The translations under genes were made by a program, and so were the position numbers. This document shows, one piece after another, positions 1,530 to 31,772 of a stretch of 64,000 bases of DNA. Every line of letters starts with the position of its first letter. The stretch's first letter is position 1. Below the pieces are notes generated by a model, which saw only the letters and a list, made by a program, of their open reading frames with translations, was not told the DNA's origin and did not search any database. The stretch is from Cyanobium sp. Cruz CV13-4-11 (GTDB lineage: Bacteria > Cyanobacteriota > Cyanobacteriia > PCC-6307 > Cyanobiaceae): assembly GCF_024346055.1 (NCBI RefSeq), contig NZ_JAGQCH010000015.1:1-64000 (forward strand), in the 5' to 3' direction.

Positions 1530-1850
1530 ATGTCCGACGCCTTCACCTTCGCCGACCTGAGCCCGTTGCTGCCGGGGGTGGCCCTGTGGGCCCTGGCCCT
1601 TTACCTGCCCCTGAGCGTGCCGCTGGGCCGGCTGGAGCAGGCCCTGGCTGAGGGTTCCCTGGAGGAAGGGCTGCAGCAACTGGTGCTGGTGGGCAGCAGC
1701 CTGCTGCTGGCCCTGGCGGTGGGACTGGTGGCGGAGCTGGTGCTGAGCTGGGCCCTCGGCCCCGGCTGGGCCGGAAGCCTGGGCCTGATCGCCGTGCTGG
1801 GGGGCCTCTCGCTCAGCCTGGCCGCCGGCAGGGACGACCGGCAGCGCTGA
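1530..1850 (+). CDS. Conserved hypothetical small membrane protein
   Basis: A small hydrophobic protein of 106 residues from the ATG at 1530 (MSDAFTFADLSPLLPG); the frame is open back to a GTG at 1470. Two to three hydrophobic segments are visible: GVALWALALYLPLSVPLG, a long leucine/valine-rich stretch around LLLALAVGLVAELVLSWALG, and a C-terminal LGLIAVLGGLSLSLAAG. No catalytic motif is seen. Its last codons and stop lie inside a perfect 26-bp inverted repeat. The function is unknown; it resembles short conserved membrane proteins of picocyanobacteria. Confidence 0.6.
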   Translation: MSDAFTFADLSPLLPGVALWALALYLPLSVPLGRLEQALAEGSLEEGLQQLVLVGSSLLLALAVGLVAELVLSWALGPGWAGSLGLIAVLGGLSLSLAAGRDDRQR

Positions 1851-1877
1851 AGCCGGTCGTCCCTGCCGGCGGCCAGG
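1817..1877. terminator. Perfect 26-bp inverted repeat between convergent genes
   Basis: Left arm 1817-1842 and right arm 1852-1877 are exact reverse complements over 26 bp, with a 9-nt loop (AGCGCTGAA). The left arm is the coding 3' end of the plus-strand gene, whose TGA stop lies in the loop. The right arm ends just before the stop of the minus-strand antiporter gene at 1881. There is no T-tract, so it would act as a very stable bidirectional hairpin (terminator or mRNA 3'-end stabiliser) rather than a classical intrinsic terminator. Confidence 0.75.
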
Positions 1878-11463: not shown

Positions 11464-11554
11464 ATCGGCCGCGGCTGCACAGGAACGCTGACGGCCGGGA
11501 CCACCTCAGGTTGAATGGGCCCGATCGATGGTCCTGCGGGACAACGCGGCATCC

Positions 11555-13009
11555 ATGGCCTCCCCCTCCCTGGTTCCGGTGATCCTCTGCGGCGGCACCG
11601 GCACCCGCCTCTGGCCCCTGTCCCGGGCCAGCTACCCCAAGCAGTACTGGCCCCTGGCCGGCACCACGGAGGAAACCCTCCTGCAGCAGACCCACCAGCG
11701 GCTGCAGGGCCTGCCCGACCTGGCACCGCCGTTGCTGATCTGCAACGAGGACCATCGCTTCATCGTGGCCGAACAGATGCGCCAGATCGGCGTGGAGCCG
11801 GCGGCGATCCTGCTGGAGCCGGTGGGGCGCAACACCGCCCCGGCGGTGGCGGTGGCGGCCCTGCAGGCCACGGCCCGCGGTGACGACCCGCTGCTGTTGA
11901 TCCTGGCCGCCGATCACGTGATCCGCCGCGCCGACGACTTCCGCGCCACCGTGGCCGCCGGCATGGCGGCAGCGGCCGACGGCCGGCTGGTCAGCTTCGG
12001 CATCGTGCCCACCAGCGCCGAAACGGGCTACGGCTACATCGAAGCCGCCGGACCCATGGCCGCCGCCACGCCCGTGCCGATCGCCCGCTTCGTGGAGAAG
12101 CCGGACAAAGCCACCGCCGAGGCCTTCCTCGCCACCGGCCGCTTCACCTGGAACAGCGGCATGTTCCTGTTCCGGGCCAGCACGATCCTGGCGGAGCTGG
12201 AGCGCTTCGCCCCCGAGGTGGTGAGCGCCTGCCGCATCGCCCTGGAGCAGGACAGCGCCGACCTGGAGTTCCTGCGGCTGGAGCGGGAGGCCTTCGCCAA
12301 CGGCCCCAGCATCGCCATCGACGTGGCGGTGATGGAGAAGACCGAGCGGGGCGTGGTGCTGCCGCTTGATGCCGACTGGAGCGACGTGGGCAGCTGGGCG
12401 GCCCTCTGGGAAACCTCCCAGCAGGACCATGAGGGCAACGTGCTGCGGGGCCGGGTGATCAGCGAGGGCAGCCACAACTGCTATCTGCGCAGCGAACACC
12501 GCCTGGTGGTGGGGCTGGGCTTGGAGGATCTGGTGGTGGTCGAAACCGACGACGTGGTGCTCGTCGCCCACCGCGACCGGGCCCAGGAGGTGAAGGGCAT
12601 CGTCGGCCGGCTGGAGCGGGATGGCGCCCCCGAGAGCCGCGCCCACCGACGCATCTACCGCCCCTGGGGCCACTACGACGGCGTGGTGGAAGGGGAGCGC
12701 TGGCAGGTCAAGAAGATCTCGGTGAAACCCGGCGCCAGCCTCTCCCTGCAGATGCACCACCACCGGGCCGAGCACTGGGTGGTGGTGCGGGGCACGGCCG
12801 TGGTGGAGAAGGACGGCGTCGAGGAGCTGGTGGGCGAGAACCAAAGCACCTACATCCCCCTCGGCGCCCGCCACCGCCTCACCAACCCCGGCAAGATCCC
12901 CATGGAGCTGATCGAGGTGCAGAGCGGCCCCTACCTGGGCGAGGACGACATCGTCCGCTTCGACGACCGTTACGGCCGCAGCGACGCCCCAGCCCCTGTC
13001 CCGGGCTGA
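11555..13009 (+). CDS. manC: Mannose-1-phosphate guanylyltransferase / mannose-6-phosphate isomerase
   Basis: A bifunctional type-II enzyme of about 484 residues (open frame from 11528). The N-terminal nucleotidyltransferase shows VILCGGTGTRLWPLSRASYP, FVEKPDKATAEAFL, WNSGMFLFRA and LDADWSDVGSW. The C-terminal cupin carries RPWGHYDGVVEGERWQVKK, LSLQMHHHRAEHWVVV and IPLGARHRLTNPGKIPMELI, the metal-binding His-rich motif. It makes GDP-mannose for surface glycans. The start at 11555 fits the family N-terminus. The 3' end is embedded in a complex set of inverted repeats. Confidence 0.93.
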   Translation: MASPSLVPVILCGGTGTRLWPLSRASYPKQYWPLAGTTEETLLQQTHQRLQGLPDLAPPLLICNEDHRFIVAEQMRQIGVEPAAILLEPVGRNTAPAVAVAALQATARGDDPLLLILAADHVIRRADDFRATVAAGMAAAADGRLVSFGIVPTSAETGYGYIEAAGPMAAATPVPIARFVEKPDKATAEAFLATGRFTWNSGMFLFRASTILAELERFAPEVVSACRIALEQDSADLEFLRLEREAFANGPSIAIDVAVMEKTERGVVLPLDADWSDVGSWAALWETSQQDHEGNVLRGRVISEGSHNCYLRSEHRLVVGLGLEDLVVVETDDVVLVAHRDRAQEVKGIVGRLERDGAPESRAHRRIYRPWGHYDGVVEGERWQVKKISVKPGASLSLQMHHHRAEHWVVVRGTAVVEKDGVEELVGENQSTYIPLGARHRLTNPGKIPMELIEVQSGPYLGEDDIVRFDDRYGRSDAPAPVPG

Positions 13010-13024
13010 GGGCGTCGCTGCGGC
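12975..13024 (+). repeat. 15-bp inverted repeat enclosing the manC stop
   Basis: GCCGCAGCGACGCCC at 12975-12989 is exactly complementary to 13010-13024, leaving a 20-nt loop that includes the manC TGA. This stem competes with the larger structure starting at 13001, because bases 13010-13017 belong to both. Two mutually exclusive folds are therefore possible at the manC mRNA 3' end. Confidence 0.6.
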
Positions 13025-13076
13025 GGCGAGCCCGCTCCGCGGGCAACGCCGCCTACGGCCGACGCCCTCAGCCCGG
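13001..13076 (+). repeat. Compound inverted repeat with palindromic core, manC side
   Basis: A perfect 17-bp outer inverted repeat (13001-13017 with 13060-13076) encloses a core with its own stem, GCCCGC TCC GCGGGC (13030-13044). The left arm includes the last manC codons and the TGA stop. The core CTGCGGCGGCGAGCCCGCT followed by CCGCGGGCAACGCC is closely related to the reverse complement of the core of the neighbouring repeat at 13145-13237. It probably acts as a terminator or mRNA stabiliser; a mobile REP/MITE-like origin is possible. Confidence 0.7.
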
Positions 13077-13144
13077 CAGGAGCTGGGCGAAGCAGGGCAA
13101 AGGGAGTAGAGGCCACCGCCGGCTCTCGGAGCCACTCCCCCACG

Positions 13145-13233
13145 GTGAGGGTGTCGGGCCTGTGACCCCCGAAGGTGGGCGTTGCCCGCGTCAGCGGGCG
13201 CGGCCACCGCAGGGCGTCACAGGCCCGACACCC

Positions 13234-13237
<4 letters not shown>
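13145..13237 (-). repeat. Compound inverted repeat with palindromic core, glmS side
   Basis: A perfect 22-bp outer inverted repeat (13145-13166 with 13216-13237) encloses a core with the stem GCCCGC GTCA GCGGGC. The right arm includes the glmS stop (13234-13236). In glmS sense the core reads CTGCGGTGGCCGCGCCCGCT then GACGCGGGCAACGCC, sharing most positions with the manC-side core. There is no T-tract. Confidence 0.7.
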
Positions 13238-15135
<1,898 letters not shown>

Positions 15136-15206
15136 AGAAGAAGTAATCCGGCGGGAAACGGGGGACGGGGACCAGGGACCGGGGGCCAGGGCCACGGGCC
15201 GAGACC

Positions 15207-31650: not shown

Positions 31651-31700
31651 GACGCTCGAAAGCTAGCAAGGCTGAACGGGGGTAGGGCTGCATACCAGGG

Positions 31701-31737
31701 AATCCTGGTTCTGTACAGCCTGTACAGAACCAGGATT
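31701..31737. repeat. Perfect 17-bp-arm palindrome with two CTGTACAG octamers
   Basis: AATCCTGGTTCTGTACA (31701-31717), a GCC spacer, then its exact reverse complement (31721-31737). The centre contains two copies of the self-complementary octamer CTGTACAG (31711-31718 and 31720-31727), offset by 9 bp. It is AT-richer than its surroundings. It lies 50 bp upstream of the riboswitch and 35 bp past the stop of the HEAT-repeat gene, so it could be an operator for thiC or a 3' hairpin of the upstream gene. No T-tract follows. Confidence 0.7.
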
Positions 31738-31772
31738 CAGCGCACCACACCCTGCCCAGGGCAGACGAACCG

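Follow-up and report, generated by a model that had tools for sequence, protein, structure and literature searches.

The window, the 64,000-nt stretch of a Cyanobium contig that was analysed (68.7% GC), carries two convergent genes, a manC-like gene on the plus strand and a glmS-like gene on the minus strand, and each of them ends in a compound hairpin (Table 1). The coordinates of glmS are those of its longest open reading frame; we take its true start to be, probably, the internal methionine of MCGIV. In both hairpins a pair of perfect arms encloses a core, and one arm takes in the TGA stop codon of its host. The positions and lengths of the arms are exactly those that the initial annotation had claimed, and the sequences likewise agree with its description of a common core that lies in opposite orientation at the two sites, each time in the sense of its own gene. 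Read in gene sense, the two hairpins share a core of roughly 40 nt that follows the form CTGCGG..GG...GCCCGC...GCGGGCAACGCC..CCT(A/T)CGG. The further claim that the arms are gene-specific is correct only in part, as both read TGAGGG(C/T)GTCG from the stop codon onward.

Table 1. Features of the manC–glmS region, the second hairpin in the window, and the third copy in the genome
Feature	Position	Strand	Description
Coreless snap-back hairpin	1817..1877	+	26-bp perfect arms, stop codon in 9-nt loop
manC-like gene	11528..13009	+	nucleotidyl transferase and mannose-6-phosphate isomerase C-terminal domain; PF00483, PF01050
Overlapping 15-bp perfect inverted repeat	12975..13024	+	arms 12975-12989/13010-13024
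manC compound hairpin	13001..13076	+	17-bp perfect arms 13001-13017/13060-13076, 42-nt spacer
TGA stop of manC	13007-13009	+	within 5′ arm of manC hairpin
manC core	13018..13059	+	conserved palindrome with mismatched internal loops
glmS compound hairpin	13145..13237	-	22-bp perfect arms 13216-13237/13145-13166, 49-nt spacer
glmS core	13167..13215	-	same kind as manC core, opposite strand
TGA stop of glmS	13234-13236	-	within arm of glmS hairpin
glmS-like gene	13234..15195	-	longest ORF; SIS and GATase domains (Pfam)
Third copy in the genome	C4:84217-84287		3′ end of dps-type ferritin gene

The manC hairpin folds with −76.5 kcal/mol (z = −7.0) and the glmS hairpin with −96.7 kcal/mol (z = −8.0), values equalled by 0 of 200 dinucleotide shuffles in each case. 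No other perfect arms of at least 17 bp around a spacer of 30–70 nt were found in 787,510 sampled bases of the same genome (about 23%). At manC, the end of the 5′ arm and the start of the core together form an inverted copy of the upstream manC codons, the 15-bp repeat of Table 1, which is missing from the initial annotation; this repeat constitutes an alternative hairpin that uses the last manC codons and is mutually exclusive with the manC hairpin. Between the two large hairpins, at 13120–13144, lies a small hairpin (GGCTC..GAGCC, with CTCCCCC), and similar letters are present in several relatives.

Searched with a covariance model built on 18 copies, the genome shows three strong sites, at manC, at glmS, and at a dps-type gene that is followed by what we take to be pyrG from its N terminus, read by eye. 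A second, broader model, built from the hits of the first so that its training sequences match by construction, agrees. The initial annotation, which described the core as used twice, was thus right for the window and one copy short for the genome. Within the genus, the model matches 16 of 42 genomes, and the element is therefore dispensable; G003, scored as a miss in this count, has both hairpins cut by contig ends. Among 400 genomes of the family, 35 have hits with the first model and 46 with the second (E of 1e-4 or better), with 1–5 copies each. An exact core pattern occurs on 15 contigs of the species-genome collection, 12 of them cyanobacterial (Cyanobium, Synechococcus, Microcystis elabens, Aphanothece saxicola, and one MAG); the remaining three, from Bailinhaonella, Xanthomonas, and Micromonospora, are probably chance matches. 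The hairpins are a low-copy family of Cyanobium-type picocyanobacteria. Other identities were considered and set aside: an exact 12-mer has six hits in the genome, three of them in such hairpins, which speaks against a broad genome-wide repeat; viral contigs gave 0 hits to the one exact core pattern searched, which for that single pattern speaks against a phage origin; and Rfam covariance models gave 12 weak matches over 12900–13350, none at the gathering score, so that no known RNA family was recognised.

The initial annotation had named as refuting it a core absent elsewhere, or copies unrelated to gene 3′ ends and lacking inverted arms, and against this test the observation mostly held. After removal of two duplicates from 89 rows, 69 of the 87 distinct copies adjoin a recognised gene end (dps 21, glmS 17, manC 12, ndhF 10, atpG 4, and five others), and 18 could not be assigned. 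Gene names rest on C-terminal motifs; a Pfam scan of a single example per gene returned the expected domains for manC, glmS, ndhF, serS, ABC, and atpG and a ferritin domain for dps; two of the 69 ends belong to a gene that replaces manC in G006 and G008 and has no Pfam domain above the cut-off. The label ATP-grasp, which is our own, has no Pfam support for this gene. The core is in gene sense in 66 of the 69 copies, and TGA is the stop codon in 66 of the 69. In 49 cases the folded hairpin takes in all or part of the stop codon, which in 15 others lies at most 10 nt upstream and in 5 is farther away; hairpin starts were taken from the fold and sometimes run a few bases past the perfect arm, so that the number of overlaps is raised. 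The fold-based set omits reverse-strand matches of the same hairpin and the weak hits G014:C17:25369 and G060:C14:18311. Several of the 18 unassigned copies are a second, opposite-facing copy between genes of the same direction, for example downstream of ndhF in G110, and these do not fit a simple 3′-end rule. L147, L153, L154, L224, and L226 are second copies that face inward within one intergenic region, in some cases with flanking genes of the same direction, and each inward-facing pair in the family scan runs plus then minus. Contigs end in or beside the hairpins in G003 (C43, C55) and G060 (C16, C17), and 3′-end hairpins of this kind may be under-represented in draft genomes.

In the core, AA(C) follows a hairpin tip of the form GCnnGC..GCnnGC; there is a stem of 6–7 bp, usually separated from the arms by a mismatched 3-by-3 internal loop. 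The tip varies with compensation (GCCCGC, GCCAGC, GCTCGC, GCGCGC, GCACGC). For 30 of the 36 own-genus copies, the nearest core is at the same locus in another genome, and for only 1 of 36 is it at another locus of the same genome, which argues that cores are mostly inherited by locus. Judged from these distances, the present cores are mostly inherited in place and copying between loci must be old. At some time the core must have spread between loci, because the loci have unpaired core letters in common, and chance convergence on those letters is unlikely. The internal loops stay mismatched in many copies, so that any copying of the arms would have to begin outside them, once the fork is on the second arm; in the dps hairpin of G062 (L160) the internal loop is itself paired, as if a copy had once run inward. 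Arms can outlast the core. In the glmS hairpin of G023 (L031) the core is mostly lost with the arms kept paired, in the manC hairpin of G025 (L085) it is partly deleted with the arms still paired, and 3 of 10 core-less glmS ends (G020, G029, G035) have another long hairpin. The retained arms of G023 and these other hairpins suggest that what persists may be the hairpin and not the core.

Changes in the arms were compared at glmS over the first 19 arm positions of 14 same-genus hairpins (91 genome pairs), a set that omits G003, whose contig ends in the hairpin, G008, which has no glmS hairpin, and other core-less genomes. Both-sided differences number 357 and one-sided differences 136, and 294 of the 357 are transversions. 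Three genome pairs are separated by a single arm change, which is a double transversion between the present genome (G000) and G023 and between G062 and G061, and is one-sided between G062 and G025. In glmS coding sequence, G018 and G023 are closer (3.4%) than any other pair; their arms show six both-sided differences and one one-sided difference. On the glmS coding tree, where any change of a pair counts as one event, there are 29 double transversions and 5 double transitions (29 of 34 both-sided events are transversions) along with 12 changes from a Watson–Crick to a non-Watson–Crick pair (1 G-U, 2 A-C, 9 other); several double changes recur on different branches, and recombination between strains or tree error may inflate the double-change count.

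Larger rearrangements are seen as well. When the dps hairpin of G004 is reverse-complemented, that of G008 agrees with it at 74 of 75 positions (56 when both are read in the same direction), and the flanks are unflipped; the direction found in G004 is common to G018, G006, G023, and G002. In a second case, within a single genus, G184 and G227 are flipped relative to G201. G006 and G008 carry, at the manC locus, the other gene mentioned above, whose end matches the 3′ arm, and G018 combines a manC-type 5′ arm with the 3′ arm seen with that other gene, so that its arms pair only near the core. Where the manC hairpin in the window has GGGCGTCGCTGCGG, the sequence in G003, a close relative, and in several other relatives is GGGCGCCGGCCTGCGG; the window form makes the perfect 15-bp inverted copy of the upstream codons, and the arm sequence of the relatives differs.

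The most telling case is a new arm, which can be followed at the coreless hairpin at 1817–1877. Its 5′ arm comprises the last codons of the open reading frame at 1470–1850, and this is followed by a perfect 26-bp inverted copy. The comparison covered 14 of 20 loci (the present genome and 13 relatives); matches were obtained in 39 of 42 genomes, many of them short and elsewhere. The 26-bp arm is absent from all 13 of the relatives examined, in which the best arm is 8 bp or less, and G012, which of the relatives matches best here, lacks the hairpin although its coding end is almost identical. Set beside G012, the new stretch is bounded by common sequence, AGCCGG before it and GGGGATCAGG after it, as expected if a replication fork jumped and came back.

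The explanation that we consider probable is that the hairpins are inherited in place, that their arms are written and kept by template switching during replication, and that the hairpin in the transcript serves as a 3′-end barrier. An old conserved core would lie just after or over the stop codon, and the nascent strand, once past the core, would fold back on its own first arm, or cross to the other strand, and copy it before returning to its template. Template switching, which we infer to be the agent of the paired changes, flips, and new arm described above, would in this way write gene-specific arms as inverted copies of the local DNA, repair one-sided mutations into both-sided ones, and sometimes flip the spacer in place, and the transcript hairpin would set or protect the mRNA end. 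Selection on the RNA is probably at work too. Published signs of template switching are arm homogenisation and spacer inversion (PMC8604942; PMC8794818), and the hallmarks observed here are a new reverse-complement arm, both-sided changes without pairing intermediates, and spacer inversion in place. The initial annotation had suggested a template-copied element that builds a snap-back from the local 3′ end, and this has good support in the both-arm transversions, the in-place flips, the G018 arms that fit two genes, and the lineage-specific 26-bp snap-back. Against the explanation count the one-sided G062/G025 change, the possible inflation of the tree count, the mismatched internal loops of many cores, the 18 copies with no assigned gene end, the dispensability of the element within the genus, and the long perfect hairpins that occur here inside long open reading frames as well; one-sided differences exist beside the both-sided ones.

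Selection on RNA alone favours G-U intermediates and transition-type changes. Mismatched pairs in the arms were counted in two ways. In a strict count, which required two Watson–Crick pairs on each side of the mismatch, own-genus arms contain 4 G-U, 7 A-C, and 10 other mismatches against 676 Watson–Crick pairs; G-U is rare and not favoured within them. Arms of other genera contain 6 G-U, 2 A-C, and 3 other against 501. An unfiltered count over the folds of 64 hairpins gives 61 G-U, 14 A-C, and 40 other one-by-one mismatches against 1207 Watson–Crick pairs and is tilted toward G-U, as the folding program adds G-U at helix ends and A-C is scored only between pairs. Eight tRNAs of the same genome, a small control, have 156 Watson–Crick and 20 G-U among 176 pairs and 0 other. 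A count restricted to hairpins with at least 13 Watson–Crick arm pairs (719 Watson–Crick, 1 G-U, 3 other, 42 hairpins) was dropped as biased to perfect arms.

These counts bear on ordinary compensatory evolution, in which strong 3′ hairpins are maintained by selection at the RNA level and the two sides mutate in turn with no special copying. The excess of G-U over A-C in the unfiltered count and in the other genera fits RNA-level selection, runs against template switching, and would leave room for selection on RNA; the placement at stop codons and in gene sense, and two lower-GC relatives (L217, L218) in which the core lies in hairpins followed by a T-run, point the same way. We nevertheless regard this account as unlikely, since transversions, for which no G-U intermediate exists, make up most of the double changes, two of the three single-change arm pairs consist of one double transversion, and in-place flips and an arm of 26 bp born in one lineage lie outside the model. 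In rRNA, 61% of instantaneous double changes are given as of transition type (PMC8794818), compared with 5 of 34 here.

Recombination between the inverted arms, or cutting and rejoining of a cruciform, would also give spacer flips without polymerase template switching. It cannot create a new arm such as that at 1817–1877 or the 15-bp copy at manC, and arms of 13–26 bp are short for homologous recombination; we think it quite unlikely. A REP-type palindrome, moved by a RAYT transposase into pre-existing terminator palindromes, is a very improbable source. GTAG REPs (Di Nocera et al. 2013, PMC3733652) are described as short palindromes, mostly downstream of genes, with a tetranucleotide at one foot, and as lying inside larger palindromes in other bacteria; the antisense core has GNAG (GTAG, GAAG, GGAG, or GCAG) at the foot of its stem, here within a mismatched internal loop inside longer arms, and inward-facing pairs occur in several intergenic regions. 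The palindromes around REPs have a consensus in the account given there, whereas the arms here are local. Unlike GTAG REPs, the present family has few copies per genome, orthologous positions, gene-specific arms, and no transposase association: the Y1_Tnp transposase (PF01797) is absent from the present genome and, across 400 family genomes, is found in 3 of 35 and 4 of 46 element genomes against 33 of 400 overall, frequencies expected without association, on which a mobile REP/RAYT element was rejected. With three copies in the genome and the nearest core at the same locus in 30 of 36 cases, the mobility considered in the initial annotation is not supported for the present. An assembly or amplification artefact (a snap-back chimera) is next to inconceivable, since many independent genomes share the manC, glmS, and dps architecture and show paired changes specific to their lineages, in some cases (G023, G199, G108) on a single contig, even though the 1817–1877 hairpin is found in one genome only and the contigs of G003 and G060 that end in or beside hairpins indicate that the structures may disturb assembly.

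A role of the hairpins at the 3′ end of the transcript is predicted from their position, their sense bias, and their recurrence at glmS, dps, manC, ndhF, and atpG. As in intrinsic (Rho-independent) terminators, a GC-rich hairpin is present right after the stop codon or at the gene end in both window copies; unlike such terminators, the window copies have long stems that overlap the stop codon and no U-tract, with 1 T in the 8 nt downstream of each, which leaves the terminator of the initial annotation putative. Among 88 hairpins, a clear T-run after the fold (6 of 8) is found only in L217 and L218, from lower-GC genomes, and T-runs are folded into the stem in L104 and L213. Arm length and T-tract show no trade-off (rho 0.04); GC content has a weak correlation with arm length (0.29) and a negative one with T count (−0.24). 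Because the window copies have no U-tract and T-runs are confined to L217 and L218, a hairpin predicted to stabilise or set the end is likelier than a canonical terminator. REP hairpins of E. coli stabilise transcript ends. Cyanobacteria are described as being without Rho and as having non-canonical 3′ ends (PMC13289151); in Synechococcus elongatus, intrinsic termination is apparent for only 22% of transcription units, and stabilising structures are described as mostly missing, yet 75 of 163 defined ends without a U-tract are structured (PMC13289151). An earlier map of the same species reports hairpins at transcript ends and a large role for Rho-independent termination (PMC3219970).

Two published systems are close to the process proposed here. 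The template-switch RNA hairpins of Monttinen and Loytynoja (2022, PMC8794818) share reverse-complement copying, perfect stems made in one event, both-sided changes, and loop inversions; they concern microRNA and rRNA genes, and the word "terminator" is absent from that text, whereas the present hairpins lie at mRNA 3′ ends, include stop codons, and have a conserved core. The inverted-repeat study of Abraham and Hazkani-Covo (2021, PMC8604942) likewise describes arm homogenisation and spacer inversion, and it refers to data from bacteria that show a bias of template switching toward transversions; its own system is yeast coding DNA with short spacers, where transitions exceed transversions, and here a whole 75-nt dps hairpin, including its core, has flipped. 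In the literature on cyanobacterial repeats, terminators, and template switching, no title or abstract seen among the matches listed describes this hairpin family, most subscription papers lying outside the scope of that search.

By what means long RNA stems remain perfect as their sequence changes has long been asked, and template switching has been proposed from comparisons of rRNA and microRNA, with part of the evidence called circumstantial by the authors (PMC8794818). Stems of 13–26 bp with lineage-specific birth, flips, a chimera, and paired transversions at known positions, in related bacteria that are partly cultured, make the idea directly testable. They also bear on 3′-end formation in Rho-less cyanobacteria, for which a 2026 study of one species could account for no more than a minority of ends. 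A more far-reaching and doubtful, if possible, extension is that the core is a palindrome-writing seed that makes the replication fork fold back wherever it sits. Were this so, the end of a host gene would be turned into a perfect hairpin with the stop codon inside, an arm would be rewritten to fit the new gene after a gene swap, and Rho-less cyanobacteria would owe the renewal of their 3′-end hairpins to mutation bias and not to selection on individual base pairs.

Elsewhere in the window, a 39-bp palindrome at 31700–31738 (19-bp arms, 1-nt centre) is AT-richer than its surroundings and lies near open reading frames that we take, from labels assigned by eye, to be thiC-like and HEAT-repeat-like.
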